From Peptococcaceae bacterium (GTDB taxonomy: Bacteria; Bacillota; Desulfitobacteriia; Desulfitobacteriales; Syntrophobotulaceae): a stretch of DNA of 44,541 bases. Location of the stretch: positions 1 to 44,541 of the forward strand of contig JAAYOJ010000032.1 in assembly GCA_012520405.1 (NCBI GenBank). The letters are read 5' to 3'. The position numbers and the translations under genes are program-made. Under the pieces are notes generated by a model. That model was not told the origin of the DNA, searched no databases, and was given only the letters and a program-made list of their open reading frames with translations. Shown one piece after another: positions 8,408-43,076 of the stretch (its first letter is position 1; each line of letters begins with the position of its first letter).

Positions 8408-10465
8408 GTGGACCAATACCAGTCAATGACCAAAGAACGCTGGGAAGAGATTCTGGAATGCAAAAAGAGATTCTTGCAGAATAACGATGAAAATCCGCTT
8501 CTTAATCCTCATATGAGCAAAGAAGTCGCTGCTTCTTGGATTCGGTCAAAAAAAATGGGGATTAATCCCCTAAAAAAAGCAACAGAGCCTCATTTAACTC
8601 CCACCGAGCATCGTAAAGTTTTAAATGATAACCGCGCCTTGATCGATATTGTGCGGCCGATAATCAATACCTTTAAAGATATGGCGGTTCTTACTTCGGG
8701 CTACATTCTATATTTATGTGAAAAAAACGGTGCCTTTCTGCTGCAAGAAGGGGACATGATGAGGGTACCTACGGACGGCCTGATTTGGAATGAAAATACG
8801 GTCGGCACTAATGTTCATTCTTTGTCCATGCGTCTTAAAAAACCGGTGCAGCTAATGGGGCCTGAGCATTACCTTGTAGCCTTGGAGAATATTATTGCTT
8901 CTGCTGCTCCTATTATGGATGAATCCGGGGAAGCTATTGCCACTTTAATTTTAAGCCAGCCCTTAGTCGAAAAACCGTGGGAGGAAGGTTTTGAAGACTG
9001 GCGTTCCCATACCCTAGGCCTGATTACTTCTATTGCAGCTGCAGTGGAAGCCCAGATGAAATTGAACAAGAGCAATCAGAAATTACAAGAAAGCTATAAC
9101 GATCTGAGAAAAGTAAATGATAATCTAATGACAGCTCATAACACTCTAGAAGCAACCTTGGCTTTCATCGATGAGGGTATAATCACTATTGATCGCCGGG
9201 GGATAATAATTCATATCAATCAGGAAGGCTTAAGGATTTTAAAAATAAAGCCTGATGAAATTGGTACCCGTAATATACAGGATTTTTTGGGTAAGCATTC
9301 CAGAGTAATGTCTTTGGTTAGCAAAGGCAAGAAGGTGGATGTCGAAGAGACCATCTTTGTTAAGAATGACGAACAACCATATGTGATTAATATTCGTCCT
9401 GTAATCAATCCTTCTAGCAAAGATGTAGATGCAGCTGTATTGAGATTAAATCATACTGAAAAGATTAATGCCATGGTAGCTAAGCGATCAGGATCAATTG
9501 TCAGATACCGTTTTGAAGATATTATTGGTAAAGATACCGGTTTAAAAAAAGTAGTTGATTTGGCCAGGCGCTTTGCCCATTCGCCGGAAAATGTTCTTCT
9601 GATCGGTGAGAGCGGTTCAGGAAAGGAGCTTTTTGCCCAGGCTATTCATACTGAAAGCCGACCGCAAGGCCCCTTTATGGCTGTTAACTGTGCTGCTTTA
9701 CCTCGGGAATTAATTGAAAGTGAACTCTTCGGTTATGAAGGGGGGAGCTTTACGGGTGCGGAACGCAGTGGCAGACCCGGTAAAATTGAACTAGCCCATG
9801 GTGGGACTCTGTTTCTTGATGAAATTGGAGATATGCCTCTTGAATTGCAGGCTGTTCTGCTTAGAACCATTGAAGATAAACAAGTTATGCGGGTAGGCGG
9901 GCGGCGTTACAATAAAGTGGATTTTAGGTTGATCGCTGCCACTAATCGAAACCTTTATAACATGGTTAAGGAAAACCAATTTCGTGAAGATCTTTATTTT
10001 CGGCTATCGGTTTTGACTATAAATATTCCCCCTTTACGGGCCAGAAAAGAAGACATAGAAATTTTAAGCAAATATTTCATAGAAACTTATTGTCAAAAAC
10101 AAGGCTGGAAAGTACCGACTCTTAGCCCGGCGGCTCAGGCCAGAATCAATGAATATGAATGGCCCGGCAATGTCCGCCAGTTGCAAAATGCTATGATTTA
10201 TGCCGTTAATACCACTCTGAATGACACCATTATGGCTGAGGATTTGCCCAGTTATATAAATTTGGAAATAGTACCGACCAAGGTGGATGGAGGGGAGGAT
10301 TATTTCAACGATGATGAGGCGCTCAGCTTACAAAACATAGAAAGAAATGCTATCAAAGCGGCTATGTTGAGGGCTGAAAACTATATTCCCGCAGCTGCCG
10401 AGATCTTAGGAATTAGCAAATCAACGCTCTATCGAAAATTAAAAGAATATGAAATTCAGTATTGA
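8408..10465 (+). CDS. Sigma-54-dependent transcriptional activator (GAF-PAS-AAA+-Fis)
   Basis: A 685 aa enhancer-binding protein of the AcoR-like class that would remodel sigma-54 RNA polymerase by ATP hydrolysis. Order of parts: a GAF-like sensor (about 75-215), a probable coiled coil (218-248), a PAS domain (about 250-350), an AAA+ domain with Walker A GESGSGKE (400-407), sigma-54 loop GSFTGA (446-451, a Ser variant of GAFTGA) and Walker B LFLDEI (468-473), and a Fis-type helix-turn-helix at the C terminus (AAAEILGISKSTLYRKL). There is no receiver domain and no membrane segment, so it probably senses a small cytoplasmic molecule. The GTG start has GGAGGG at 8396-8401. The three sigma-54 promoters at 10658, 11043 and 18610 are its obvious candidate targets. 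Confidence 0.93.
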   Translation: MDQYQSMTKERWEEILECKKRFLQNNDENPLLNPHMSKEVAASWIRSKKMGINPLKKATEPHLTPTEHRKVLNDNRALIDIVRPIINTFKDMAVLTSGYILYLCEKNGAFLLQEGDMMRVPTDGLIWNENTVGTNVHSLSMRLKKPVQLMGPEHYLVALENIIASAAPIMDESGEAIATLILSQPLVEKPWEEGFEDWRSHTLGLITSIAAAVEAQMKLNKSNQKLQESYNDLRKVNDNLMTAHNTLEATLAFIDEGIITIDRRGIIIHINQEGLRILKIKPDEIGTRNIQDFLGKHSRVMSLVSKGKKVDVEETIFVKNDEQPYVINIRPVINPSSKDVDAAVLRLNHTEKINAMVAKRSGSIVRYRFEDIIGKDTGLKKVVDLARRFAHSPENVLLIGESGSGKELFAQAIHTESRPQGPFMAVNCAALPRELIESELFGYEGGSFTGAERSGRPGKIELAHGGTLFLDEIGDMPLELQAVLLRTIEDKQVMRVGGRRYNKVDFRLIAATNRNLYNMVKENQFREDLYFRLSVLTINIPPLRARKEDIEILSKYFIETYCQKQGWKVPTLSPAAQARINEYEWPGNVRQLQNAMIYAVNTTLNDTIMAEDLPSYINLEIVPTKVDGGEDYFNDDEALSLQNIERNAIKAAMLRAENYIPAAAEILGISKSTLYRKLKEYEIQY

Positions 10466-10657: not shown

Positions 10658-10673
10658 TGGCATGTTTTTTGCA
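10658..10673 (+). promoter_or_regulatory. Sigma-54 promoter 1
   Basis: TGGCATGTTTTTTGCA matches the -24/-12 consensus TGGCAYR-N4-TTGCW at every defined position, with GG and GC 10 bases apart. It lies 73 bases before the start codon of the small zinc-ribbon gene. Confidence 0.88.
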
Positions 10674-11042: not shown

Positions 11043-11058
11043 TGGCACATAATTTGCA
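11043..11058 (+). promoter_or_regulatory. Sigma-54 promoter 2 (Mo/W oxidoreductase operon)
   Basis: TGGCACATAATTTGCA is a full -24/-12 consensus match. It lies 54 bases before the start codon at 11113 and should drive the five-gene operon to 18430. Confidence 0.92.
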
Positions 11059-11112: not shown

Positions 11113-13356
11113 ATGAAGAGAAATTTCGATTTTGAACAGGAAGGTATTCAAGTCAAAAAGTCTTGCTGTTATTTTTGTCACCAGAACTGTGGGGTACTTG
11201 CTTATGTTAAGGATGACAAAGTATTGGCTATTGAAGGCGATCCTGATTTCCCGACCAATACCGGCGGATTATGCTGCCGGGGTAATATTGCCTTACTCCA
11301 CCTGGATCATCCTGACCGGGTTAATTATCCTCTAAGGAGAGTTGGTAAACGGGGAGAAGGAAAATGGGAGACAATTTCCTGGGATCAAGCTCTGGATGAG
11401 ATTGCGGCCAAGCTTGGTCAAATCCGAGAGGAATATGGAGCCGAGGCTGTAGCAACTGCCGGTGGTACGCAGCGTACTGATGATTGGGCTCGTCGCCGTT
11501 TTATGAACTTGTTCGGTAGTCCTAACGGTTTTCATAATTCGCACCTATGTTGGATTCCAACCTTTATGATCGAAACAGCAGTTTGTGGCTGGAGTCCATT
11601 TGAAATTGACTTATCCTACAGTCGCTGTATTGTTTTATGGGGACAAAATCCAGGAGCTTCCAATATGCCGGAAATGCACCATCTCAGCGAACTAAGACAA
11701 AAAGGGTTAAAGATTATTACCATCGACCCTCGATTTACGGAAACAGCTGCCAAATCAGATTTATGGCTGCCTTTGCGCCCCGGATCAGACCTGGCTCTGG
11801 CTCTGGCTTGGTTGCATGTAATTATCTATGAGGGTTTGTACGATCCGGTTTTCGTGGAGAATTATTGTGAAGGTTTTGGTGAACTGGCTAACCATGTTGA
11901 ACAGTATACACCGGAGTGGGCGGAGCCGCTCACTTGGCTTAGCGCTGATCTCATTCGGGAAAGTGCCAGGATGTATGCGATGAATAAACCCGGTAATATT
12001 CAATGGGGAGTTGCCATGGATCAGCAGGGCAGAGCTTCCGGAGCAGCGATTCATGCCCGGACCCTAATTCGTGCTATTACCGGTAATCTGGACGCACCCG
12101 GGTCTGACCTTTTAACCGGTCCTAGTCTGGAGTTTATAACCGATGAGGAAATGGAAGCTAATGAGTATTTGAGCGAGGAACAAAAGGCCAAACAGATCGG
12201 TGCCGATAAATTTAAACTGCTTACCTGGCCGGGATACAGTAAAATTGCCGAGATGAGCAAAAAATATTGGGGTAAGGTACCGACCGCCGAATGGATGTGC
12301 GAGGCCCATCCGCCTTCGGTATTCAGAGCGATTTTATCTGGAGATCCTTATCCTGTTAAAGCCCTTTTGGTTTCCGCAACCAATCCGGTTAACTCTTACG
12401 GCGAGAGCAAGCTGGTTCTGGATGCCTTGAGAGAAGTGGATTTTATGGTAACCTGTGACTATTGGATGACTCCTACCGCCGCTCTCTCCGACTATGTCCT
12501 GCCCATCGCCGGGGCCCTGGAGAGGCCAACGATAACCAGTAGCTACGGCTGTTCAGACTTCCTACTGGCTTCCCAGCGGGCAATTAAACCCATGTATGAG
12601 AGACGCAATGATTATAACTTCTGGAGGGATCTTGGGATCCGCCTGGGACAAAAAGACATGTGGCCTTGGGAGACTGTGGAAGACGCTTATTTGCACAAGA
12701 TTGAACCCCTTGGTTATGGTAGTGACAGTTATGATGAGTTTGTGGAATACTGGCGTTTTCATTTCCCGGAGAGGCAGTATCAGAAATACTTGGATAAAGG
12801 AGGGTTTGGTACACCCTCGGGTAAAATTGAACTTTATTCCAGTGTCCTAAAAGATTTAGGTTATTCTCCATTGCCGGAGTATGTGGGACCCGTGGAGAAT
12901 GAAATTGATCATCCGGAATTAGCCGAGGAATATCCCTTGGTACTATCTACAGGTAACGGCTTTATGCCTTTCCACCATTCTGAACATTTTCAGATTCCGG
13001 ATGTACGTTTCCTGAATAGTGAACCTTATTTCCAAATAAATCCGGAAACCGCCGAAGAATACGGTATTGAGGAAGGGGACTGGGTCTGGATCGAAACTCA
13101 GCGGGGCCGCATGAAACAGAAAGCCGACGTTACCCAGGCCGTGGCTCCCAGGGTTATTATTACCCAACGGGGCTGGTGGTTCCCGGAAAGAAAAATGAAG
13201 GAACCGGATCTGGCGGGCTGCCTGGAATCCAATACTAATGTTTTGACAAGCACCAGGGATGAGGATTGCTGTCCCCTGAGCGGAACTTGGGCCAACCGGG
13301 GCTTGTTATGCAAAATATATAAAGTTGATAGTACTGAGCAAAAGGAGGGTAACTAA
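11113..13356 (+). CDS. Mo/W-bisPGD oxidoreductase catalytic subunit A
   Basis: A 747 aa member of the DMSO reductase superfamily. An N-terminal 4Fe-4S cluster is held by C19, C22, C26 and C54 (C-x2-C-x3-C-x27-C, followed by the usual x-R-G). The pterin-binding body follows, and the candidate metal ligand is C146 in HLCWIPT. From memory its layout resembles the single-cluster subfamily that includes tungsten acetylene hydratase (RVNYPL, ISWDQALDEIA, RRFMNLFGSPN), but the Asp after the second cluster Cys of that enzyme is His here, so acetylene hydration is not supported. There is no Tat signal, so the active site should face the cytoplasm. The ATG has GGAGG at 11102-11106. It heads an operon with a ferredoxin and NrfD subunit, so it probably exchanges electrons with the quinone pool. 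Substrate unknown. Confidence 0.9.
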   Translation: MKRNFDFEQEGIQVKKSCCYFCHQNCGVLAYVKDDKVLAIEGDPDFPTNTGGLCCRGNIALLHLDHPDRVNYPLRRVGKRGEGKWETISWDQALDEIAAKLGQIREEYGAEAVATAGGTQRTDDWARRRFMNLFGSPNGFHNSHLCWIPTFMIETAVCGWSPFEIDLSYSRCIVLWGQNPGASNMPEMHHLSELRQKGLKIITIDPRFTETAAKSDLWLPLRPGSDLALALAWLHVIIYEGLYDPVFVENYCEGFGELANHVEQYTPEWAEPLTWLSADLIRESARMYAMNKPGNIQWGVAMDQQGRASGAAIHARTLIRAITGNLDAPGSDLLTGPSLEFITDEEMEANEYLSEEQKAKQIGADKFKLLTWPGYSKIAEMSKKYWGKVPTAEWMCEAHPPSVFRAILSGDPYPVKALLVSATNPVNSYGESKLVLDALREVDFMVTCDYWMTPTAALSDYVLPIAGALERPTITSSYGCSDFLLASQRAIKPMYERRNDYNFWRDLGIRLGQKDMWPWETVEDAYLHKIEPLGYGSDSYDEFVEYWRFHFPERQYQKYLDKGGFGTPSGKIELYSSVLKDLGYSPLPEYVGPVENEIDHPELAEEYPLVLSTGNGFMPFHHSEHFQIPDVRFLNSEPYFQINPETAEEYGIEEGDWVWIETQRGRMKQKADVTQAVAPRVIITQRGWWFPERKMKEPDLAGCLESNTNVLTSTRDEDCCPLSGTWANRGLLCKIYKVDSTEQKEGN

Positions 13357-13357
13357 C

Positions 13358-13921
13358 ATGGCGCGTTATGCAATGGTTATTGATACCCGTCGTTGTATAG
13401 GCTGTCAATCATGCACTGTAGCCTGCAAGGTTCATAATGAGCTGCCGGTAGATATGATTTATAACCCGGTTACAACCGTCGGCCCTACCGGGGTGTTTCC
13501 TAACCTGCATATGGTTCATATACCCTTGTTATGCATGCACTGCGAAAATACACCTTGTGTGGATGCCTGTCCGACGGGCGCTTCTCTACGCAGGGAAGAC
13601 GGGATTGTCTGGATTAACGAGAAAAAATGTGTAGGCTGCAAAGCCTGTGTTATGGCTTGTCCTTATGGAGCCCGTATTTCCAATCAGGAAAAAGGTATTG
13701 TTCAAAAATGTGACTTTTGCCTGGATCGGGTTGATATGGGCAAAATTCCCCGCTGTGTGCAGAGCTGCCATCAGAAAGCACGTATCTTTGGCGATTTGGA
13801 CGATCCTAACAGTGAAGTTGTTAAACTTATAAATAGCCACCATACTGTTAGACTTTTGGATGAGTTGGGGAGCAAACCTTCGGTATTCTATATTTATGGA
13901 TTGGAGGCGCAGATGAGATGA
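13358..13921 (+). CDS. Four-cluster ferredoxin electron-transfer subunit (DmsB/PhsB type)
   Basis: A 187 aa protein with sixteen Cys in four groups, enough for four 4Fe-4S clusters: CIGCQSCTVAC near the start, CMHCENTPCVDAC, CVGCKACVMAC, and CDFC with CVQSC. This is the standard small subunit that wires a Mo/W catalytic subunit to a membrane quinone subunit. The ATG at 13358 has AAGGAGG 10 bases upstream and starts one base after the previous stop; an upstream in-frame start would overlap the catalytic gene and lacks support. There is no Tat signal, in agreement with the catalytic subunit. Its stop overlaps the next start (ATGA). Confidence 0.93.
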   Translation: MARYAMVIDTRRCIGCQSCTVACKVHNELPVDMIYNPVTTVGPTGVFPNLHMVHIPLLCMHCENTPCVDACPTGASLRREDGIVWINEKKCVGCKACVMACPYGARISNQEKGIVQKCDFCLDRVDMGKIPRCVQSCHQKARIFGDLDDPNSEVVKLINSHHTVRLLDELGSKPSVFYIYGLEAQMR

Positions 13922-14874
13922 GTCGCAAACATGACGAATGGGGCTGGATGCTGGCCGTGGACTTTTTCTTCGCCGGCATGGGCGGTGCAATGCTTGTCAT
14001 TGCCGGAATCGCTGATTTATTCCTGGGGAACGCCCAGACATCTGTGCTGGGCAATTTTGCCGGAGCTATATTTATCGCCATCGGAGCAGGCTTTCTGATT
14101 TTGGAATTAGGGCGTCCTCTGCAGGCTTTTCGGGTTTTCATGAATCCTAAAGCTATTCTGACCTTTGGGGCTTGGAATATGACTTTTGCTATTATTGCAG
14201 GCTTGTTGTTTGCTTCCTTCGGGATTACAATTTTGCCGTGGAGCGGGTTTATTTTGGTCCGCAAATTTTTGGCTGCTTTTTGTATAATTTTTGGTCTGAT
14301 TGTGGCTACCTATCCGGGAGTGTTGTTAGCCAGGCATAAAGCCCGCCCCTTTTGGAATGGTCCCGGGATTATGGTCTTGTTTTTCCTTTCCTCTTTTATC
14401 ACCGGCATGGCGGGACATATCCTGAGCGGTTATGTTATAGGCGAATCTTCTTGGTTTATAGCTGAGGGTTATATTGTTAATTCCTTATCTTCCTTGGTTC
14501 TGCAAGACCTACCGCATCTGACCGCGATTTTGTTGCTGTTTCAATTGATTTTCTGGGCAGGATATATCTGGATTAAAAGGAGCGGAGGTACGGATCGGGA
14601 AGCCGAAGCTGCTCAAAGATGGATTAACGGTGACCTTTCTGCTTCATTTAAATTAGGCTTTATTTTATTGGGTACTATCGTACCGATTGTCCTTATGCTG
14701 TTCACCACCCCGGTTATTCATAGTGTCGGCGCTTGTCTGGCAATTTTGGGCGGTATGATTATGCGCTATTTGGTAGTGCGTGCCGGCGAGGACCGTACCT
14801 GGCTTCCGGGAGAGCAAAAGTATCGCTCCCGCCTGCCTGTAGGTAACGAAGAGTTTTTGAAAGTTTGGAAGTAA
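13918..14874 (+). CDS. NrfD/PsrC-type membrane subunit
   Basis: A 318 aa protein with about eight or nine hydrophobic segments, in the NrfD/PsrC family, which anchors iron-sulfur subunits to the membrane and reacts with quinone. Features include an opening WGWMLAVDFFFAGMGG segment, a FLILELGRPLQAFR loop and a final polar stretch after residue 280. It overlaps the ferredoxin gene by four bases, so the two are made in fixed ratio. Together with 11113 and 13358 it forms a catalytic-ferredoxin-anchor complex. The direction of electron flow, substrate oxidation or reduction, cannot be told from sequence. Confidence 0.9.
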   Translation: MSRKHDEWGWMLAVDFFFAGMGGAMLVIAGIADLFLGNAQTSVLGNFAGAIFIAIGAGFLILELGRPLQAFRVFMNPKAILTFGAWNMTFAIIAGLLFASFGITILPWSGFILVRKFLAAFCIIFGLIVATYPGVLLARHKARPFWNGPGIMVLFFLSSFITGMAGHILSGYVIGESSWFIAEGYIVNSLSSLVLQDLPHLTAILLLFQLIFWAGYIWIKRSGGTDREAEAAQRWINGDLSASFKLGFILLGTIVPIVLMLFTTPVIHSVGACLAILGGMIMRYLVVRAGEDRTWLPGEQKYRSRLPVGNEEFLKVWK

Positions 14875-14901
14875 AACCGGGCCCATAAAGGAGAATTAGT
14901 C

Positions 14902-16248
14902 ATGCAGTCAGACCAGGGGATAACAGTCCTCGATACCACCAAAAGTGTGTGTCCCGTTTGTTTAAATATAGTGGAAGCTGCTGTTATCGTTCAGGAAAAA
15001 GCCGTCTATCTGAAAAAATGCTGCCCTGAACATGGAGAGACAGTAACCTATCTCTGGCCAGATGTTGAGCACTATCGCTGGATGTCAGGGCTCAAACTTC
15101 CCTATATCCGTCCGAAGTTACAGCTTGATTCCACTCAAGGGTGTCCTAGGGACTGCGGGTTATGTAAGGCTCATCTTCGTCACTCCACCCTTGTGGAAAT
15201 TGAAGTAACAGAGCGCTGCAACTTGCGCTGTCCGGTATGCTTTATGGCAGCTGAGGCAGCGCCTGCTGCTTTAAAAACCCCTTCCGGGATAGCGGATCAA
15301 GATCCCGGTATAGAGGCTTTGGAAGCTAAATACAGGGCTATTTTGGAGAAAAGCGGACCACAGACCAGCATACAAATAACCGGCGGTGAACCAACTGTTC
15401 GTCAAGATTTACCGGAAATTGTCCGCCTTGGTCTTAATATGGGATTAGAGGCCATTGAAATCAATACCAACGGTGTTGTTATTGCCAATGACTATGCTTT
15501 CTTGGAAAAACTGGTCCTGGCCGGTGCCAGCGGCATTTATCTTCAGTTTGACGGGCTTACCTCCGAGGTTTACCAGAAAATACGCGGTCAAAATTTGCTG
15601 CCTATCAAACTGAAAGCCATTGAAAATTGCCGCCAAGCAGGGATCCAGGTTGTCTTGGCCATGACGGTCATTGAAGGCATTAACCATGATCAAATGGGCC
15701 GGGTATTGGATTTTGCTTTATTAAATAAGGATGTAATTGCCGGTCTGGCCTATCAGCCGGCTTTTGGTTCCGGACGCTTTGATGTGGATACAAACAAAAG
15801 GCTGGGCATGGGGGATGTAATCTTTATGCTCGCTGAACAAAGCCAAGGTTTGCTTAAACCTTATGATTTTTGGCCCTTAGGTTGTTCACATCCTTTATGT
15901 TCAAGCGCAACCTATCTTATAGATTATGAGGGGAAAATCGAACCCTTGACCCGCAAGCTCACAAGAGAGGAGTATATGGCGGAATTCGATCCCCAAAGCC
16001 CGCAGGGTTCGGTATTAGGAGATATCGCCTATAAAAAATACCCGGATTTAAAATCAGGTCTGTCTATCGTCATCATGAATTATATGGATGCCTTTACTAT
16101 GGATTTAAAGCGGCTCAGGGAATGTAGTATGACGGTGTTGGGCAAAGACGACAAAATAGTGCCCTTTTGTTCCTATCAGCTGACCAATACGTCAGGCCAG
16201 AGAAGAGATGAACTACTAACTAACGCACGAGGTAATTACCATGTCTAA
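14902..16248 (+). CDS. Radical SAM protein of Tes/MJ0619 style
   Basis: A 448 aa protein. An N-terminal metal-binding part has CPVC (C17, C20) and KKCCPEHG (C40, C41). It is followed by a first CX3CX2C set GCPRDCGLCKAH (C81, C85, C88) and then the radical SAM motif ERCNLRCPVCF (C106, C110, C113), with TGGEPTVR as the SAM-binding segment. More Cys near the C terminus (GCSHPLC, FCSYQL) could hold a further cluster. The double Cys motif is typical, from memory, of the family containing archaeal tetraether lipid synthase and MJ0619. Sitting inside a Mo/W oxidoreductase operon is unusual: it may mature a subunit, modify a lipid or peptide, or act on the pathway substrate. AAGGAG precedes the ATG, and its end overlaps the next gene by 8 bases. 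Confidence 0.82.
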   Translation: MQSDQGITVLDTTKSVCPVCLNIVEAAVIVQEKAVYLKKCCPEHGETVTYLWPDVEHYRWMSGLKLPYIRPKLQLDSTQGCPRDCGLCKAHLRHSTLVEIEVTERCNLRCPVCFMAAEAAPAALKTPSGIADQDPGIEALEAKYRAILEKSGPQTSIQITGGEPTVRQDLPEIVRLGLNMGLEAIEINTNGVVIANDYAFLEKLVLAGASGIYLQFDGLTSEVYQKIRGQNLLPIKLKAIENCRQAGIQVVLAMTVIEGINHDQMGRVLDFALLNKDVIAGLAYQPAFGSGRFDVDTNKRLGMGDVIFMLAEQSQGLLKPYDFWPLGCSHPLCSSATYLIDYEGKIEPLTRKLTREEYMAEFDPQSPQGSVLGDIAYKKYPDLKSGLSIVIMNYMDAFTMDLKRLRECSMTVLGKDDKIVPFCSYQLTNTSGQRRDELLTNARGNYHV

Positions 16249-18430
16249 TCAGAAAAGTATAGCAGCAAATTGTCGTTTCTGCGGCTACCAGTGTGCTTTG
16301 CAGGCCGAGATAGTGAATGGAAAAGTAATAAAAGTAAGGCCCGATGCCAGTCGTTTTCCTTATGACGACAGCATTCAAGCCAGATGTCGTCGCTGGCGCC
16401 GGGTACCTGAGGTTCTGGATCATCCCCAGAGAATTAACTACCCGCTCAAAAGAGTAGGCGAGCGGGGTAGCGGCAAGTGGCAGCGCATATCCTGGGAACA
16501 AGCCTTGGATGAGATAGCTGATAGACTTCAAGCCCTGAAACAAACCTATGGGCCGGAAACGCTGGCTACCAGTATTGGAGGTCCTCATACAACATTCTGG
16601 CCCTTACACCGTTTTATGACCCTTTTCGGCAGTCCTAACAATATGGGAATAGGCCAAATTTGTTGGAATCCAGGAATTTTGGTCAACGCCATGACCTATG
16701 GCTGGCCTATTGATATGGAATTGCATCCGGACTTGACTGAATGTGCCCTTCTGTGGGGAGTTAATCCCGCCGAATCGGATAATTCCCTATTTTGGCATAC
16801 TATCCAGGAATTTAGCCGTCGGGGAAAACCTATAATTGTGGTAGATCCCAGAAAAACCGCTACGGCCAAACTGGCAACCCTTTGGCTTCCGGTCCGGCCG
16901 GGTACAGACCCTGTTTTAGCGTTGGGTTTATTGCATGTCATAATTAGAGAAAAACTTTATAACTTGAATTTTGTTGACCTGTGGTGTCATGGTTTTGCTG
17001 AGCTGGAAAAGCATGTTGCTTCTTACTCCCCTTCTTATGTGGAGGCCGTAACGGGCGTTAAAGCCGAAGATGTAATCAAAGCAGCCCGCCTTTTTGCCGG
17101 CAAATTTCCGGCCACTTTGTATAGTGGACGAGGGATTGACCAGCTTGGTCCCAATACTGTGCCAACCCACCGGGCCTTAGCAATCTTACGAGCCGTAACA
17201 GGAAACGTGGATGTGCCCGGAGCGTCACATATAAGTGAAATGCCGGATTTTATACCGGAAATAGATCTGGAATTAAGTGCCCAATTCCCAGAACATTCCC
17301 GCCGGAATAACATTGCCCGCAATCGCTTGCTTCTTCAGTCCTACAGCGGTTATGAGCGCTTAAAGTCTTTAACTATGAAACACAATAAGCGGCTTCCTAT
17401 GCGCTACCTGACTTCCGCCCATCCTAATCTGATCTGGCGAGCGATGCTCAATGGCGAGCCTTATCCCGTACGTTCCATGATAGTTATGGCTTCTGACCCT
17501 TTGCTTACCCAGGCCGATACCCATTTAATTTACCAAGCTTTAAAGAGCCTGGATTTGCTCGTTGTTCTGGAATTATTTAAAACCCCAACCGCCATGCTGG
17601 CAGATTATATCCTGCCTGCGGCGGGCGTAATGGAACGGCCGTTAATGGAAACCAAAGCCGGGACGGCGAATATCGCTTATGGTGGGGACCAAGCTGTTGA
17701 ACCTTATTATGAAAGGCGTCCAGACTACTATTTTTGGCGAGAAATAGGGCTACGCCTGGGTCAAACAAAAGAATGGCCCTGGAAAACTTACCGGGAGGCT
17801 TTGCAAGCCTCGTTATCTCCCGCCGGGGTAGGCTGGGAAGATTTCTGCAAGACAGGGTTATACTGTGCTTCTAACCAATATTTCAAGTATCAGGAAATAA
17901 ATCCGCAAAGTGGGCAAGCGTCTGGCTTTGCCACTGCCAGCGGCAAAATTGAATTATATAGTAATTTTTTAGAACAATTAAACGCTGATGCTCTCCCTAC
18001 CCCAAAAGCTTTGCCGGAAGTAAGCCCCAGTTATCCGCTTAAGCTTATAACCGGAGCGCGTTTTCATCCCTACTATGCTTCCAGTTACCATCAATTACAA
18101 GAATTTCGCCGGCTTCACCCCCATCCTTGGGCTGAAATGAGCTCTGCCACGGCGGCTAAATTTGGCCTTGAAGATGGCAGTCGGCTCTGGGTTGAGACCA
18201 AAAAAGGGAAGGCCCGTTTTGTTGCCAAGATCTCAGAAATGTGCGATGATGTTATAAGTGTGGAATATGGCTGGTGGTATCCGGAAATGGAAGCTGCGGA
18301 ACCTAGCTTGGGCGGTTTGTGGCTCTCCAATGCCAATATTTTAACCAGTGCAGAATTTGAATCCTCCGATCCTTTGATTGGCACCTGGATATATAACGGA
18401 CTTAGCTGTAGAATAGAAAAAATCCAATAA
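16241..18430 (+). CDS. Mo/W-bisPGD oxidoreductase catalytic subunit, second type
   Basis: A 729 aa paralogue of the subunit at 11113. The N-terminal 4Fe-4S ligands are C11, C14, C18 and C49, and the candidate metal-ligand Cys is C141 in GQICWNPG. Shared blocks include RINYPL, ISWEQALDEIA, RFMTLFGSPN and the C-terminal YGWWYPE. The residue after the second cluster Cys is Gly, unlike both the His of its neighbour and the Asp of acetylene hydratase. There is no Tat signal. The ATG at 16241 overlaps the radical SAM gene by 8 bases, so translation is coupled. No second ferredoxin or anchor gene is present, so this subunit either shares the ones at 13358 and 13918, forms a heterodimer with the first catalytic subunit, or works as a soluble enzyme. 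It is the last gene of the sigma-54 operon. Confidence 0.88.
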   Translation: MSNQKSIAANCRFCGYQCALQAEIVNGKVIKVRPDASRFPYDDSIQARCRRWRRVPEVLDHPQRINYPLKRVGERGSGKWQRISWEQALDEIADRLQALKQTYGPETLATSIGGPHTTFWPLHRFMTLFGSPNNMGIGQICWNPGILVNAMTYGWPIDMELHPDLTECALLWGVNPAESDNSLFWHTIQEFSRRGKPIIVVDPRKTATAKLATLWLPVRPGTDPVLALGLLHVIIREKLYNLNFVDLWCHGFAELEKHVASYSPSYVEAVTGVKAEDVIKAARLFAGKFPATLYSGRGIDQLGPNTVPTHRALAILRAVTGNVDVPGASHISEMPDFIPEIDLELSAQFPEHSRRNNIARNRLLLQSYSGYERLKSLTMKHNKRLPMRYLTSAHPNLIWRAMLNGEPYPVRSMIVMASDPLLTQADTHLIYQALKSLDLLVVLELFKTPTAMLADYILPAAGVMERPLMETKAGTANIAYGGDQAVEPYYERRPDYYFWREIGLRLGQTKEWPWKTYREALQASLSPAGVGWEDFCKTGLYCASNQYFKYQEINPQSGQASGFATASGKIELYSNFLEQLNADALPTPKALPEVSPSYPLKLITGARFHPYYASSYHQLQEFRRLHPHPWAEMSSATAAKFGLEDGSRLWVETKKGKARFVAKISEMCDDVISVEYGWWYPEMEAAEPSLGGLWLSNANILTSAEFESSDPLIGTWIYNGLSCRIEKIQ

Positions 18431-18609: not shown

Positions 18610-18625
18610 TGGCATAACTATTGCA
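18610..18625 (+). promoter_or_regulatory. Sigma-54 promoter 3 (cofactor operon)
   Basis: TGGCATAACTATTGCA matches the -24/-12 consensus fully. Transcription should start near 18636, giving a leader of about 340 bases before moeA that holds the structured RNA and terminator listed next. The gap 18431-18979 is explained by these elements; the 76-codon ORF inside it has no ribosome binding site. Confidence 0.9.
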
Positions 18626-18979: not shown

Positions 18980-20194
18980 GTGAAAACAAATATCTCGCTA
19001 GAAGAGGCACAGGCCATGCTGCTGGCTAGGGCTATGGATATTGGCCAAAAAAATAACAATTTAACAGACACCTTAGGAAGAGTTTTAAGTAAGGATATTA
19101 TTGCCCAAGAAAATGTACCTCCTTTTCCCCGTTCGCCCTATGATGGTTTTGCTTTCCGGTCTGTTGATACTGTGTCTGCCAGCCAGAGTAGCCCTGTTAC
19201 CCTAAATGTCATTGAAGAAGTACCGGCAGGCTATACGGCTAAAAACAGTATAAGTGCCGGACAAGCAATTAAAATTCTTACCGGCGCTCCTATTCCTGAA
19301 GGAGCGGATGCAGTCTGCAAATTTGAAGAAACCACAGTAAAGGACAATAAAGTAACCCTCTATAAAAGCTACGAGCAACAAGAGGGGATAGTTCCCGCAG
19401 GTGAAGATATAGCCAGAGGTACATTGATAGCCGCTAAGGGAACGGTTGTCACTCCGCCAATTATGGGTTTGTTGGCCGCTTTAGGAATACCGATGGTACC
19501 GGTATACAAACGTCCTCTGGTAGCTATTGTCTCCACAGGCGATGAGTTGCGAGATGTTTCCGAGACTTTAACACCGGGTAAAATTCGCAACAGCAACAGT
19601 TATACCCTTCAGGGTTATATTCGTTCTATTGGTGCCGAACCTATCGTAATTGGTATGTGTCCCGATAAGGTCGAAGAGGTAGCTTCCCTTATTGAACAGG
19701 GACTGGAAAGGGCGGACCTTGTGCTTACGACCGGGGGAGTTTCAGTAGGTGATTACGATGTAGTTAGACATGCCGTGGACTATCTTGAAGCCGAAACTCT
19801 ATACTGGAAAATTGATATTAAACCGGGTTCTCCGAGTTTGGCTGCCATTAAGAATGATAAATTGATTATCGGTTTATCCGGTAATCCGGCGGCAGCAATG
19901 GTTACCTTTCAACTTTTAGTGGCTCCTTTCATTAAAAAAATTATGGGCAGGCAGGAATACTTAAACCCGAAATTGGAAGTAATACTAAAAACGAATTTCC
20001 CCAAAGCCAGTCCCCGTCGCAGATTCCTACGCGGAAAATTAGTTATTGAGAACGGCACGGCCTTTATGGAAATAACCGGTGGGCAGGGCAATGGGGTATT
20101 GAGTTCCATGGAGGGATGCAATCTCCTGGCTGAGGTTCCGGCTAATAGCGGTCCGTTACAAGCCGGCCAAAAACTCACAGCTTATTTAATTTAA
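18980..20194 (+). CDS. moeA: Molybdopterin molybdenumtransferase MoeA
   Basis: A 404 aa protein that inserts molybdate into adenylylated molybdopterin, the step after Mog. The family pattern is clear: PPFPRSPYDGFAF near residue 50, TGAPIPEGADAVC, a Mog-like domain with VSTGDEL, TTGGVSVGDYD and GLSGNPAAAMVTF, and a C-terminal beta domain. The length is normal. The GTG start has GGAGGG 6 bases upstream. It is the first gene after the candidate riboswitch and sigma-54 promoter 3. Close paralogues can insert tungsten instead, and Mo and W are not separable by eye here. Confidence 0.93.
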   Translation: MKTNISLEEAQAMLLARAMDIGQKNNNLTDTLGRVLSKDIIAQENVPPFPRSPYDGFAFRSVDTVSASQSSPVTLNVIEEVPAGYTAKNSISAGQAIKILTGAPIPEGADAVCKFEETTVKDNKVTLYKSYEQQEGIVPAGEDIARGTLIAAKGTVVTPPIMGLLAALGIPMVPVYKRPLVAIVSTGDELRDVSETLTPGKIRNSNSYTLQGYIRSIGAEPIVIGMCPDKVEEVASLIEQGLERADLVLTTGGVSVGDYDVVRHAVDYLEAETLYWKIDIKPGSPSLAAIKNDKLIIGLSGNPAAAMVTFQLLVAPFIKKIMGRQEYLNPKLEVILKTNFPKASPRRRFLRGKLVIENGTAFMEITGGQGNGVLSSMEGCNLLAEVPANSGPLQAGQKLTAYLI

Positions 20195-20242
20195 GAAACG
20201 AATAACGAACAAATAAGGAAGAAGGAAAGTGAGGATCAAAAA

Positions 20243-21262
20243 GTGAAAAAAATTGCTGTACAAGACGCTGTTGGCATGATATTATGCCACGACATAACCA
20301 AAATGGTGCCGGGAGAATTCAAGGGTGCAGTATTTAAAAGGGGACATATAATTCAAAAAGAGGATGTGGAAGAACTATTAAAACTTGGCAAAGAAAGTAT
20401 TTATGTCTGGGAAGAAAATGCCGGCGAGATCCACGAAGATGACGCCGCAATCCGAATTGCCAGGGCTGTAATGGGTGGAAACATTTCTTTTTCTGATCCC
20501 CAGGAGGGAAAAACTGTCCTGCAAGCAACCATTAGGGGTTTCTTTAAATTAAAAAGTGCATTGATGTATGAAATAAATTCTATTGAAGATATTACCATAA
20601 CTTCTCTTCCTAATAATTTTAAGGTTGAGCAAGGCCAAAAGATTGCCGCTGGCCGGATAGTCCCTCTGGTTACCAAAGAAAAGAATATAGAAAAAGTTGA
20701 AGAGCTGTGCAAGATTCACGGTCAGGTATTTCAAGTCTATCCTTATAAAAATTTAAAAGTAGGCGTGGTCATTACAGGTAATGAAGTTTATAAAGGAAGA
20801 ATTAAAGATAAATTCTGGCCTGTAATTAAGAAAAAATTAGAATATTATAAAGCAGAAATACTCGGCCAAGAGTATTGTCCGGATGAGGTTGAAATTATTA
20901 GGGAAAGAATATTGGCCTTTAAAGAAAAGGGCGCGGAAATGATTATTATTACCGGGGGAATGTCGGTAGATCCTGATGACCTTACACCGGGAGCAATTAG
21001 AAGTACCGGGGCGGAAATTGTTACTTATGGGGTTCCGGTTCAGCCGGGTAATATGTTTATGTTGGCTTATCTGGACGAAGTCCCGATCCTAGGAGTGCCC
21101 GGAGCAGCCGCCTATTTTAAAACCACGGTATTTGACGTGGTTCTACCGAGAATTTTCTCAGGAGAAAAATTAAATAAAAATGACTTTATACGCATGGGAG
21201 AAGGCGGTTTATGTAATAACTGTCAGATGTGCCAGTATCCGAATTGTTATTTTTGCCGGTAA
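20243..21262 (+). CDS. MoaB/Mog-domain molybdopterin-binding protein with Cys-rich tail
   Basis: A 339 aa protein with an N-terminal region of about 165 residues of uncertain role and a C-terminal molybdopterin-binding domain (VGVVITGNEVYKG, MIIITGGMSVDPDD, GVPGAAAYFKTTVFD). The last 17 residues are CNNCQMCQYPNCYFCR-like, with five Cys in a C-x2-C-x2-C-x4-C-x2-C array that could bind zinc or an Fe-S cluster. Such proteins occur beside moeA and moaA in anaerobic Firmicutes and are usually labelled molybdopterin-binding; their exact reaction is not settled. The GTG start has GAGG 8 bases upstream. The next gene, moaA, starts 26 bases after its stop. Confidence 0.8.
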   Translation: MKKIAVQDAVGMILCHDITKMVPGEFKGAVFKRGHIIQKEDVEELLKLGKESIYVWEENAGEIHEDDAAIRIARAVMGGNISFSDPQEGKTVLQATIRGFFKLKSALMYEINSIEDITITSLPNNFKVEQGQKIAAGRIVPLVTKEKNIEKVEELCKIHGQVFQVYPYKNLKVGVVITGNEVYKGRIKDKFWPVIKKKLEYYKAEILGQEYCPDEVEIIRERILAFKEKGAEMIIITGGMSVDPDDLTPGAIRSTGAEIVTYGVPVQPGNMFMLAYLDEVPILGVPGAAAYFKTTVFDVVLPRIFSGEKLNKNDFIRMGEGGLCNNCQMCQYPNCYFCR

Positions 21263-21288
21263 TTAGGCAAGGAGGAGGGGTAAAGGTC

Positions 21289-22248
21289 ATGATCGATAGT
21301 TACGGCAGGGATATAAATTATTTAAGAATATCGGTAACCGATTTATGCAATCTCAAATGCACCTACTGTATGTCCGAGAAAGGTATTCGCAAAAAAAACC
21401 ATGACGATATTCTGAGTCTGGAACAAATAGCCTGCATAGCTGAAGCTGCAGTAAAGCTTGGAGTTACCAAGATTAGGCTGACCGGCGGCGAACCCTTGGT
21501 CCGCAGGGGAATTCTGGATTTAGTGCAAGACATTGCGAGTTTAAAAGCCAAGGGCCTCAAAGATTTAGGTCTTACCACCAATGGTGTTCTACTTAAAAAT
21601 TATGCCTCCGAACTAAAAAAAAGAGGTCTGGACAGGGTTAATATAAGTATTGACACCATGGACGGGGCAAAATACAAGGAGATTACCCGAGGCGGCAAGG
21701 TAGAGGATGTACTGGCCGGGATTCAAGCAGCTAAGGAAGCAAAACTTTTCCCCTTAAAACTAAATGTGGTCTTAATTGGTGGTTTTAATGACGACGAAAT
21801 TGAAGACTTTGTCAACCTAACCGCAGATAGTGAGATCGACGTACGTTTTATTGAACTCATGCCTATCGGTGAGGCGGGAGATTGGGATAGGGAGCATTTT
21901 TTAGCCAGCAATGAAATTCTCAAAAGAGTGCCACGCTTAATTCCCCTTCCGTTTAAAGGTCACGGTACAGTAGCCCGCATGTACAAGCTACCTAACAGCA
22001 AAGGTAAAGTGGGCATTATTAGCCCTTTAAGCAGCCATTTTTGTAACTATTGTAATCGGATAAGAATTACCCCTGACGGGAAATTGAAACCTTGCCTGCA
22101 TTCCAATATTGAGCTGGACATACGTAATTATTACGGAGACTTGGAACGATTTTTGTCGGACGGGATTTTAGGTAAACCTCACAAGCACTGTATTCAAAGC
22201 AGCGAGTACGAGCCAATTAGAAGAAATATGCATGAAATAGGTGGATAA
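21289..22248 (+). CDS. moaA: GTP 3',8-cyclase MoaA
   Basis: A radical SAM enzyme of 319 aa that converts GTP to 3',8-cyclo-GTP, the first step of molybdopterin synthesis. N-terminal motif C20, C24, C27 (DLCNLKCTYCM), then TGGEPLVR. The C-terminal cluster motif is FCNYCNRIRITPDGKLKPC (C-x2-C-x13-C), and the protein ends in the Gly-Gly needed for catalysis (HEIGG). The ATG at 21289 is chosen because GGAGGAGG lies about 10 bases before it and homology starts there; upstream in-frame codons overlap the previous gene and encode no conserved sequence. Confidence 0.95.
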   Translation: MIDSYGRDINYLRISVTDLCNLKCTYCMSEKGIRKKNHDDILSLEQIACIAEAAVKLGVTKIRLTGGEPLVRRGILDLVQDIASLKAKGLKDLGLTTNGVLLKNYASELKKRGLDRVNISIDTMDGAKYKEITRGGKVEDVLAGIQAAKEAKLFPLKLNVVLIGGFNDDEIEDFVNLTADSEIDVRFIELMPIGEAGDWDREHFLASNEILKRVPRLIPLPFKGHGTVARMYKLPNSKGKVGIISPLSSHFCNYCNRIRITPDGKLKPCLHSNIELDIRNYYGDLERFLSDGILGKPHKHCIQSSEYEPIRRNMHEIGG

Positions 22249-22252
22249 AAAG

Positions 22253-22732
22253 ATGGGAGAGCTTACTCATTTTAATCAGGAAGGCCGGGCCAGGATGGTT
22301 GATGTCAGTCATAAGGCTGATACAACCAGGGTAGCGGTAGCCCGCGGCGAAATAAAAATGAAAGCTGAAACTTTAAAGCTGATCAAGGACAAATCCCTGG
22401 CTAAAGGAGATGTCCTGGCTGTATCTCAGGTGGCAGCCATTATGGGAGCAAAAAAAACACCGGACCTTATCCCCATGTGTCATCCCTTGTTGCTGTCCGG
22501 AATCGATGTTTCTTTTACAATTAATGAGCCTGAAAGTAAAATCGAAATACAAGCGATTGTAAAAAATAACGGCCAGACAGGCGTGGAAATGGAAGCCTTA
22601 ACTGCCGTTTCTGTTGCCGCCCTGACTATTTACGACATGTGCAAAGCCGCGGAAAAAAGTATGGTTATAAGCGATATTTACCTGGTCAAAAAATCCGGCG
22701 GCAAGAGCGGAGATTATGAGGTGAAAACATGA
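22253..22732 (+). CDS. moaC: Cyclic pyranopterin monophosphate synthase MoaC
   Basis: A 159 aa protein acting after MoaA to form cPMP. Typical segments: LTHFNQEGRARMVDVSHK at the start, AAIMGAKKTPDLIPMCHPL in the centre, and TGVEMEALTAVSVAALTIYDMCK with the catalytic region near residue 125. The ATG at 22253 is preferred over a GTG at 22241 because GGTGG lies 9 bases before it and the GTG overlaps moaA. It overlaps mog by four bases. Confidence 0.95.
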   Translation: MGELTHFNQEGRARMVDVSHKADTTRVAVARGEIKMKAETLKLIKDKSLAKGDVLAVSQVAAIMGAKKTPDLIPMCHPLLLSGIDVSFTINEPESKIEIQAIVKNNGQTGVEMEALTAVSVAALTIYDMCKAAEKSMVISDIYLVKKSGGKSGDYEVKT

Positions 22733-23244
22733 ACTACACCGTAGGTATTCTTACTGCGAGCGATAAGGGTTCGCGGGGAGAGCGAGAAGACCGCAGCGGT
22801 CAGGTTATAAAAGAAATGGTGGAACAGCTTGGCTGGCAAGTTAAAGTTGCGGAAATTGTTCCGGATGAACAAAGTATTATTGAAGAGAAGCTCACTAGCT
22901 ATGCTGATGATCTAAAACTAAATATTGTATTTACCACCGGCGGCACAGGTTTTTCCCCGCGGGACGTAACACCTGAAGCTACCCTGGCCGTGGTAGAAAA
23001 ACTAACTCCGGGTATACCTGAAGCTATGCGTTGGGCGAGCTTGCAGATTACTCCCAGAGCTATGTTGTCCAGGGCTTGTGCGGGTATCAGAGGACAGACC
23101 GTTATTATTAACCTGCCGGGCAGCCCCAAAAGCGTGCAAGAATGTTTGCAAGTTATATTATCATCACTTGAACATGGCTTGGATATCTTAACAGGCAAGG
23201 GCGGCGAATGTGCCCGGCCGCTAAGCCCTGGTCAAGGTTCCTGA
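22729..23244 (+). CDS. mog: Molybdopterin adenylyltransferase (Mog/MoaB)
   Basis: A 171 aa protein that adenylylates molybdopterin before metal insertion by MoeA. It has the family signatures VGILTASDKGSRGEREDRSG, FTTGGTGFSPRDVTPEAT and INLPGSPKSVQECL. The ATG overlaps the moaC stop (ATGA), so the genes are co-translated. MogA and MoaB names are used interchangeably for this size class. Confidence 0.92.
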   Translation: MNYTVGILTASDKGSRGEREDRSGQVIKEMVEQLGWQVKVAEIVPDEQSIIEEKLTSYADDLKLNIVFTTGGTGFSPRDVTPEATLAVVEKLTPGIPEAMRWASLQITPRAMLSRACAGIRGQTVIINLPGSPKSVQECLQVILSSLEHGLDILTGKGGECARPLSPGQGS

Positions 23245-23259
23245 ATAGGAGGATAGTTT

Positions 23260-23763
23260 ATGGCAGATATCCCGGTAATTTGCTTTGTAGCAGCTAAATC
23301 AGGCACAGGTAAGACCACTTTTTTAGAAAAGTTAATTCGAGAAATGACAAGCAGGGGCTATGAACTGGGAGTAGTTAAAAGCGATGCTCACAGTTTTGAG
23401 ATAGACGTGCCCGGTAAAGATAGCTGGCGGTTTAGCCAAGCCGGGGCCAAAGCAACCGCTATTATAGGTCCGGATAAATATGCTTTAATTCAAAAAACCG
23501 ACAGCAAGAGGGATCTGGAGGATGTTTTGCCTCTTATTCAAGGCGTTGACATTATTCTTGTAGAAGGCTATAAAGCGGCCAATAGGCCCAAAATTGAAAT
23601 TGTTAGACGGGAGCGGGGGACAGAAATAGTCTCCGGTCTTGAGAATCTAATTGCCGTGGTTACTGACGTTAAAGAACTTAAAGTTCCTGTTCCGCTCCTG
23701 GATATCAATGATTATCAAGGCGTTGCCGATTTAATTGAGGACCGCTTTCTAACTAAAAAATAA
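23260..23763 (+). CDS. mobB: Molybdopterin-guanine dinucleotide biosynthesis protein MobB
   Basis: A P-loop GTP-binding protein of 167 aa that assists MobA in attaching GMP to molybdopterin. The Walker A motif AAKSGTGKTT lies near residue 12, followed by VVKSDAHSFEIDVPGKDSW and a later VDIILVEGYK segment, all typical of MobB. It follows mog by 15 bases with AGGAGG upstream. The partner mobA is not here but 16 kb away at 40208. The presence of MobA and MobB agrees with the need of both catalytic subunits for a bis-guanine-dinucleotide cofactor. Confidence 0.93.
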   Translation: MADIPVICFVAAKSGTGKTTFLEKLIREMTSRGYELGVVKSDAHSFEIDVPGKDSWRFSQAGAKATAIIGPDKYALIQKTDSKRDLEDVLPLIQGVDIILVEGYKAANRPKIEIVRRERGTEIVSGLENLIAVVTDVKELKVPVPLLDINDYQGVADLIEDRFLTKK

Positions 23764-23772
23764 GCATATAAG

Positions 23773-23804
23773 TTTAGATATCCTAAAAGAGAGGGATATC
23801 TAAA
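23773..23804 (+). terminator. 11-bp hairpin between mobB and the MOSC gene
   Basis: TTTAGATATCC (23773-23783) pairs perfectly with GGATATCTAAA (23794-23804) around a 10-base loop. Only GCTTTATT follows, so termination may be partial. Confidence 0.5.
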
Positions 23805-23851
23805 GCTTTATTGCCTAAAGGAGAAATAATATATAGGAGAGGGGTATCTAG

Positions 23852-24313
23852 ATGCCTAAAGTACTGGCTGTTAATATCAGTGAAACCAAAGGGGTTCCCA
23901 AACAGGAGGTTGAAAAGGGTTATTTTGAAGTGGAACATGGGCTGGTTGGAGATGCTCATGCCGGGGAATGGCATAGACAGGTAAGCCTGTTAGGAGTTGA
24001 AAGTGTTGATAAACTAAGGGCAGCCGGGCTTAAAGACCTTACTAACGGCAGATTTGCCGAGAATATAACTACCGAAGGCCTAATCCTTCATGAACTCCCT
24101 ATTGGCACCAGGCTCCATATTGGAGAAACAGTGATGGAAGTTACTCAAATAGGTAAAACCTGCCATAACAGCGGTTGTGCTATAAAAAGAGCTACCGGTG
24201 ACTGTGTTATGCCCCGCGAAGGGATTTTTGCCAGAGTAATCGTGCCGGGTTGGATTAAACCGGGTGACGAAATTAAAGTGCAGGAAAGAGACGGGCAGTT
24301 GCCGTTAATTTAA
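23852..24313 (+). CDS. MOSC-domain protein
   Basis: A 153 aa single MOSC domain. The domain is known from Moco sulfurase C termini and the YiiM and mARC proteins, where it binds molybdenum cofactor or handles sulfur. Visible landmarks are GLVGDAHAGEWHRQVSLL near residue 30, the region FAENITTEGL, and the conserved Cys region KTCHNSGCAI near residue 105. It follows the cofactor operon on the same strand and may be a cofactor carrier or delivery factor for the sigma-54 operon enzymes. Its stop overlaps the convergent gene by four bases. Confidence 0.85.
   Translation: MPKVLAVNISETKGVPKQEVEKGYFEVEHGLVGDAHAGEWHRQVSLLGVESVDKLRAAGLKDLTNGRFAENITTEGLILHELPIGTRLHIGETVMEVTQIGKTCHNSGCAIKRATGDCVMPREGIFARVIVPGWIKPGDEIKVQERDGQLPLI

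Positions 24314-41411: not shown

Positions 41412-43076
<1,665 letters not shown>

Follow-up and report, generated by a model that had tools for sequence, protein, structure and literature searches.

A conserved operon with two acetylene-hydratase-branch enzymes and a Tes-type radical-SAM protein: a possible two-unit Mo/W pathway of anaerobic bacteria

The acetylene-hydratase branch of bis-MGD enzymes covers hydration, reductive dehydroxylation and sulfur transfer, and to our knowledge most of its members have no known substrate. In acetylene hydratase itself Asp13 is the catalytic residue, while Ile142, Trp179, Trp293 and Trp472 form a hydrophobic ring.

Acetylene hydratase is also described as the closest relative of the catechol dehydroxylases, homologues of which are present in Desulfitobacterium (PMC7028382). 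Catechol dehydroxylases of the Gordonibacter type lack signal peptides, and for ellagic acid there are two dehydroxylases, Eadh1 and Eadh2, both of them cytoplasmic bis-MGD enzymes whose genes share one cluster (eam) with those for Fe-S proteins (PMC12771579). In the metallopterin-dependent ergothioneine synthase MES, an acetylene-hydratase-like module with a Cys ligand is fused to a cysteine desulfurase, which demonstrates that the branch is capable of unexpected chemistry (PMC9516567). Among radical-SAM proteins, the tetraether lipid synthase Tes (GDGT-MAS), whose rubredoxin, N-terminal-cluster and RS-cluster ligands have been described, acts on lipids rather than proteins (PMC9433317).

Here we analyse an operon that combines relatives of these systems. 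Literature searches returned no description of its gene set, which looks like a real but undescribed pathway.

The operon and its promoter

The window (the whole stretch of DNA analysed, 44,541 nucleotides, from a Peptococcaceae bacterium) carries five same-strand genes within 7.3 kb, encoding a catalytic protein (A), a ferredoxin, an NrfD protein, a radical-SAM protein (rSAM) and a second catalytic protein (B). The family of each was confirmed with Pfam and NCBIfam. These genes and the features around them are the following:

8408..10465, + strand: sigma-54-dependent activator with PAS, AAA+ and Fis-type HTH domains, DhaR/PrdR-like (Pfam Sigma54_activat 2.6e-65, PAS, HTH_8)
11043..11058, + strand: predicted sigma-54 promoter TGGCAC-N5-TTGCA, TGGCACATAATTTGCA, 54 bp before A and downstream of the activator gene
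11113..13356, + strand: A, acetylene-hydratase-branch catalytic protein of the bis-MGD type, 747 aa (PDB 2e7z match, tree, active-site columns)
13358..13921, + strand: four-cluster ferredoxin of the DmsB/TtrB/DsrO type, 16 Cys (Pfam/NCBIfam)
13918..14874, + strand: NrfD-type membrane anchor, 318 aa, 8 TM (Pfam NrfD 5e-22, topology)
14902..16248, + strand: rSAM, radical-SAM protein of Tes architecture, 448 aa (PDB 7tol, invariant residues)
16241..18430, + strand: B, the other acetylene-hydratase-branch catalytic protein of the bis-MGD type, 729 aa (PDB 2e7z match, tree, active-site columns)
18610..18625, + strand: another sigma-54-like site, with 1 mismatch, ahead of the cofactor operon
18980..24313, + strand: molybdenum-cofactor genes MoeA, MoeA-like, MoaA, MoaC, MogA/MoaB-like, MobB and MOSC (Pfam)

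Consecutive genes of the operon are separated by at most 27 bp (A-ferredoxin 1 bp, ferredoxin-NrfD a 4-bp overlap, NrfD-rSAM 27 bp, rSAM-B an 8-bp overlap), and 549 bp lie between B and the molybdenum-cofactor genes, most of which are likewise found next to A and B in as many as seven other genomes. The ferredoxin starts at an ATG behind an AGGAGG site at 13358, and not at the listed TTG at 13325; its 16 cysteines account for four [4Fe-4S] clusters, and an RR pair belongs to the first cluster loop and is not a signal. A sequence search with the NrfD protein gave no PDB match up to E=0.1. Its predicted topology places both termini and all K/R-rich loops on one side, predicted to be cytoplasmic (19 K/R versus 0). 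Since, in addition, the N-termini of A and B contain neither an RR motif nor a hydrophobic signal, i.e. no Tat signal, the catalytic chemistry is most likely located in the cytoplasm. An initial sequence-only reading of this DNA had reported two diverged Mo/W catalytic subunits in one packed operon, both facing the cytoplasm, and the coordinates, families, tree and N-termini all bear this out. It had also regarded the cytoplasmic location as unlike that of most DMSO-reductase-type respiratory enzymes, but within this branch it is not unusual, as demonstrated by the Gordonibacter-type catechol dehydroxylases (PMC12771579).

The first three genes resemble the three-subunit iron-sulfur molybdoenzymes of the PhsABC/PsrABC type, composed of a catalytic subunit, a four-cluster ferredoxin and NrfD, and they are adjacent in nearly every locus encoding A. 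Unlike that type, the enzymes of this locus have no Tat signal and are placed on the cytoplasmic side, and the operon additionally encodes another catalytic protein and a radical-SAM protein.

The predicted promoter at 11043-11058 is the sole sigma-54 site without mismatches in the window; a weaker one lies at 10658-10673. A site scoring at least 9/11 precedes the operon in all 13 relatives examined. At a score of at least 10, the background is 0.025 sites/kb, estimated over 1.05 Mb of other loci. The activator probably regulates the operon; it falls under the NCBIfam cut-off for PrdR (413 bits versus 795), and a homologue (56% identity) is encoded upstream of A in another locus (L033).

Elsewhere in the window, two radical-SAM ferredoxin-domain proteins resembling glycyl-radical-enzyme activases are encoded at its edge (23-2515), on either side of an HbpS-like gene. 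The gene at 37583-40018 encodes 811 aa in which domains of pyridine-nucleotide-disulfide reductase, rhodanese, TusA and DsrE are fused, and a protein examined for its Cpn60_TCP1 match (41433-43076) proved to be an ordinary GroEL (PDB GroEL, E=1e-230).

Active sites of the two catalytic proteins

The best solved relative of both catalytic proteins is acetylene hydratase of Pelobacter acetylenicus (2e7z; E=7e-131 for A, E=1.7e-109 for B). In a quick tree of 122 sequences, with several long branches and unsure deeper forks, A (n=28) and B (n=31) each form one fully supported clade, and both fall in a group that also holds acetylene hydratase and five further sequences; the same tree does not support A and B as exclusive sisters.

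When residues were mapped onto acetylene hydratase (the published numbering equals that of the chain + 3), the [4Fe-4S] ligands Cys9/12/16/46 were found in 27-28 of the 28 A sequences and in all 31 B sequences, and the metal ligand Cys141 in all 59. In these cysteines, as well as in size and cytoplasmic location, A and B are like acetylene hydratase. Unlike it, they lack Asp13, replaced by His in 28/28 A and by Gly in 31/31 B, and in every A and B Lys48 is Arg and Ile142 is Trp. The remainder of the hydrophobic ring is remodelled differently in the two clades: A and B have, respectively, Leu/Met and Asn at the position of Trp179, Trp and Ser/Thr at that of Trp293, and Tyr and Ala/Gly at that of Trp472, so that by residue content the pocket of B is small/polar. 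Each clade has its own invariant active-site motifs, while DPR, PGTD, NxNxLT and other common bis-MGD motifs are retained in B, also in A, and largely in acetylene hydratase. Judged by these residues, A and B are two different enzymes with distinct conserved active sites, neither of them that of acetylene hydratase.

Both proteins end after the Molydop_binding domain (Pfam). The C-terminal cysteine desulfurase domain of MES, with which they share the acetylene-hydratase-like module, is therefore absent, and MES-like sulfur insertion was rejected on this ground. In many Eggerthellales (L217-L224, L230), A has a C-terminal extension of ~190-245 aa with repeated W/Y-D motifs, which is absent in A of Bacillota.

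The radical-SAM protein and the genes linked to it

The best solved relative of rSAM is Tes (7tol, E=2e-78). In 23 orthologues the residues C17/C20/C41/H44, C81/C85/C88/H91 and C106/C110/C113 are invariant; they constitute a rubredoxin-like CX2CX20CX2H motif, a C-C-C-H set for an N-terminal auxiliary cluster and a CX3CX2C motif, and match the rubredoxin, N-terminal-cluster and RS-cluster ligands of Tes (PMC9433317). These three sites are common to rSAM, Tes and TrsS. However, rSAM falls under both NCBIfam cut-offs, with 316 bits against Tes (NF045702, cut-off 450) and 382 bits against TrsS (NF045646, cut-off 490). TrsS-like paralogues (33-43% identity) reside in another cluster, together with genes for a methyltransferase, a C-GCAxxG-C-C protein and a CoA-ligase-like protein, while such TrsS neighbours (TrsM-like methyltransferase, C-GCAxxG-C-C and CoA-ligase-like proteins) are absent beside the rSAM orthologues. 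With the cut-off missed and the typical neighbours missing, an assignment of rSAM as TrsS was rejected. The window's genome has a further locus at which a radical-SAM protein of this class is independently paired with a molybdoenzyme (L154, contig C189, 7915-12911); there, another bis-MGD enzyme, a ferredoxin and a 733-aa TrsS/Tes-like radical-SAM fusion are encoded downstream of sugar-type ABC transporter genes.

A gene for a DUF2064 protein of 285 aa is present on another contig of the window's genome (L153, contig C68, 6246-7100). Its AlphaFold model (pLDDT 92.7) has a predicted CofC/FbiD-like nucleotidyltransferase fold: the top Foldseek match is 3cgx (1e-15), an uncharacterised nucleotide-diphospho-sugar-transferase-like structure, followed by FbiD Rv2983 (4e-10) and 3-PG guanylyltransferase (4e-9). 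The KTR, GGD and DxD residues are invariant. With this predicted fold and these residues, the protein is like the CofC/FbiD phospho-acid guanylyltransferases, but it is longer (285 versus about 205 aa) and F420 is not implied. The modelled fold and the conserved residues together suggest that the pathway may include the nucleotide activation of a small phosphorylated molecule. For the neighbouring DUF169 protein the model is of moderate quality (pLDDT 76), with no Foldseek match at E<=0.001 and best weak matches that are ferredoxin-like.

Also encoded at this locus (L153, 446-7584) are a third enzyme of the acetylene-hydratase branch (C, 746 aa), accompanied by a ferredoxin of 111 aa, and OYE, PhnP-like MBL, DUF169-ferredoxin, DUF2064 and GNAT proteins. 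A sigma-54 site precedes each group, and in relatives the A/B operon is flanked by clusters of this kind. Because the A/B operon, C and the GNAT-DUF2064-DUF169-MBL-OYE operon are all preceded by such sites, as are C or the GNAT/DUF2064 genes of G021, G027 and G009, the separate contigs of this genome appear to belong to one sigma-54 regulon. An rpoN-like (sigma-54 factor) gene lies within the DUF2064/DUF169 island in two genomes (L155, 8930-10324; L161, 3067-4452), fitting a dedicated regulon of this kind.

Other genes also recur beside the module: those for an ABC transporter with an SBP_bac_8 protein and for an APH-like kinase in Desulfosporosinus and relatives (L034, L038, L039) and in an Eggerthellales genome (L225), and those for a nucleoside hydrolase in Bacillota. 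Taken together, these genes hint that the substrate may be phosphorylated or may contain ribose.

The same set of genes occurs in Bacillota, Desulfuromonadales (Desulfuromonadaceae/Pelobacter; L035, L036), Chloroflexota (an Anaerolineales genome; L037, L189) and Eggerthellales, i.e. in anaerobes of at least four phyla, including gut bacteria. In a survey of 74 genomes of the order, an orthologous rSAM (at least 56% identity) was found in 15, of which 13 also have B, and in the two genomes without a detected B the contig ends inside rSAM. Long-form DUF2064 is present in 14 of these 15 genomes and in none of the other 59. Among 249 Eggerthellales, about one fifth carry the set (rSAM 48, A 48, DUF2064 51 and B 47, including G078, in which B is truncated), and the 48 genomes with rSAM comprise 48 with DUF2064, 45 with B and 44 with A. 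As the genomes in these surveys are related, the counts and the Fisher values calculated from them describe association and not independent events. The sequence-only reading had called for a survey of the five genes in other genomes, and their presence together in many genomes of several phyla argues for a grouping beyond chance.

Two units and the pathway they may form

The genes for A, ferredoxin and NrfD hold together, as do those for rSAM and B (and DUF2064), and these two groups shift relative to each other. In Desulfosporosinus (L038, L039) the order is rSAM-A-Fd-NrfD-B, the one case in which rSAM and B are parted; chemoreceptor genes separate the groups in the Desulfuromonadaceae/Pelobacter loci; they reside on different contigs in an Anaerolineales and an Eggerthellales genome (G077, G078); and one Eggerthellales locus (L222) has the order A-Fd-NrfD-HdrD-B-DUF2064-rSAM-(Fd-DUF169)-GNAT. 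In G555, B lies among HdrD-like, DUF2064, rSAM and DUF169 genes on a 2.45-Mb contig that is essentially the whole assembly; a search of the entire genome at E<=1e-150 gave no ortholog of A, and the four-cluster ferredoxin and NrfD are absent at the locus. In G789, B and rSAM are encoded beside a protein distantly resembling A, an HdrD-like protein and another ferredoxin, and B without A occurs also in G499 and G712. The loci of G555 and G789 thus indicate that B does not everywhere depend on the redox partners of A, although B may still use the same ferredoxin in Bacillota, given the close packing of the five genes there. Of the single electron module that the sequence-only reading had assigned to both catalytic proteins, the link to A stands, while B stays with rSAM and DUF2064; a B with separate redox partners in relatives, which that reading had named as evidence against itself, is found in part in G555.

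With the architecture, clades, active-site differences, sigma-54 promoters and co-occurrence established at the level of sequence, we propose that A and B belong to two units of one sigma-54-induced cytoplasmic Mo/W pathway and act in series, a reading to which we give about an even chance of being correct and which keeps as plausible the earlier suggestion of two enzymes in series. It draws on the different invariant pockets of two clades that retain the same cluster cysteines and Cys ligand, on the co-occurrence of rSAM, B and DUF2064, on units that stay intact when the gene order changes (with the second occurring without the first in G555), on the sigma-54 sites ahead of the operon, the DUF2064 operon and C, and on the DUF2064 fold. 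The first unit, A-ferredoxin-NrfD, would be a three-subunit iron-sulfur molybdoenzyme turned to the cytoplasm, in which the four-cluster ferredoxin carries electrons between A on one side and NrfD and the menaquinone pool on the other; both the path and the direction of the electrons are conjectural. The second would consist of B, the Tes-type rSAM, the CofC-like DUF2064 protein, the DUF169-ferredoxin protein and an HdrD-like protein, the genes for the last three lying elsewhere in the genome or, in relatives, next to B. The reaction of B would differ from that of A, with a larger or more polar substrate, and rSAM and the nucleotidyltransferase would most likely serve to build or modify a cofactor or an activated intermediate required by B, although rSAM could also act on something unrelated to the reaction of B. 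The order of the steps is likewise presumptive. Eadh1/Eadh2 provide a precedent, by analogy, for two cytoplasmic enzymes of the branch acting in series (PMC12771579).

Four other explanations have to be weighed against this two-unit pathway. The unlikely one with most in its favour is that A and B are phenol/catechol-dehydroxylase-like reductases working in sequence on an aromatic substrate, with rSAM and the nucleotidyltransferase as accessories. The kinship of catechol dehydroxylases with acetylene hydratase, through which the comparison is made, and their Desulfitobacterium homologues (PMC7028382) agree with this, as do the two related cytoplasmic bis-MGD reductases and Fe-S partner genes of the eam cluster (PMC12771579) and, in the island in the order, an OYE-family reductase and MFS transporters resembling those for aromatic acids. 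Compared with the Gordonibacter type, which has a small Fe-S partner and MFS transporters, A and B are likewise predicted to be cytoplasmic and MFS genes lie near some loci, but A has a four-cluster ferredoxin and NrfD. Against this reading, the literature consulted reports no dehydroxylase tied to a radical-SAM or CofC-like protein, whereas the link is near perfect here, and A and B are retained in Eggerthellales genomes that contain few bis-MGD genes, which fits a core function better than xenobiotic use. Somewhat less probable still is that rSAM and DUF2064 are maturation factors for B or its cofactor and not pathway enzymes. They form with B the most tightly linked trio, also without A; molybdenum-cofactor biosynthesis genes lie in the same cluster; and SAM would be a costly consumable in bulk catabolism. 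Against this, the common bis-MGD motifs of B give no reason on sequence grounds to require an unusual cofactor, and the characterised relative of rSAM acts on lipids, not proteins (PMC9433317).

The sequence-only reading had raised the idea of a heterodimer. An obligate one, in which A and B share a single ferredoxin and a single NrfD, would fit their similar length, their related clades and their packing in Bacillota, but we consider it improbable: the presence of B without A in G555 (on a single contig), G499 and G712, the splitting of the units in other phyla and the lack of support for A and B as exclusive sisters all argue against it. That A or B is an acetylene hydratase, and thus a non-redox hydratase, is scarcely credible and this candidate was rejected; despite the match to 2e7z and the retained Cys141 and cluster cysteines, Asp13 is missing from 59/59 sequences, Ile142 is Trp, the three ring tryptophans are all lost in B and two of them in A, and A has dedicated redox partners.

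Within the proposed two-unit pathway, a more tentative suggestion is that B, the Tes-type rSAM and the CofC-like protein together produce or employ a nucleotide-activated cofactor, or a metabolite formed by C-C coupling, that is so far undescribed, and that A-ferredoxin-NrfD links this chemistry to the quinone pool. Two strictly conserved members of the branch are tied here to a radical-SAM enzyme and a nucleotidyltransferase, in Eggerthellales as well as in Desulfitobacterium relatives, and the defined gene set, the inducible sigma-54 promoter and the active-site differences make their function directly testable. If the more tentative suggestion is true, it would reveal an unrecognised respiratory or cofactor system common to gut Eggerthellales and environmental anaerobes of four phyla.
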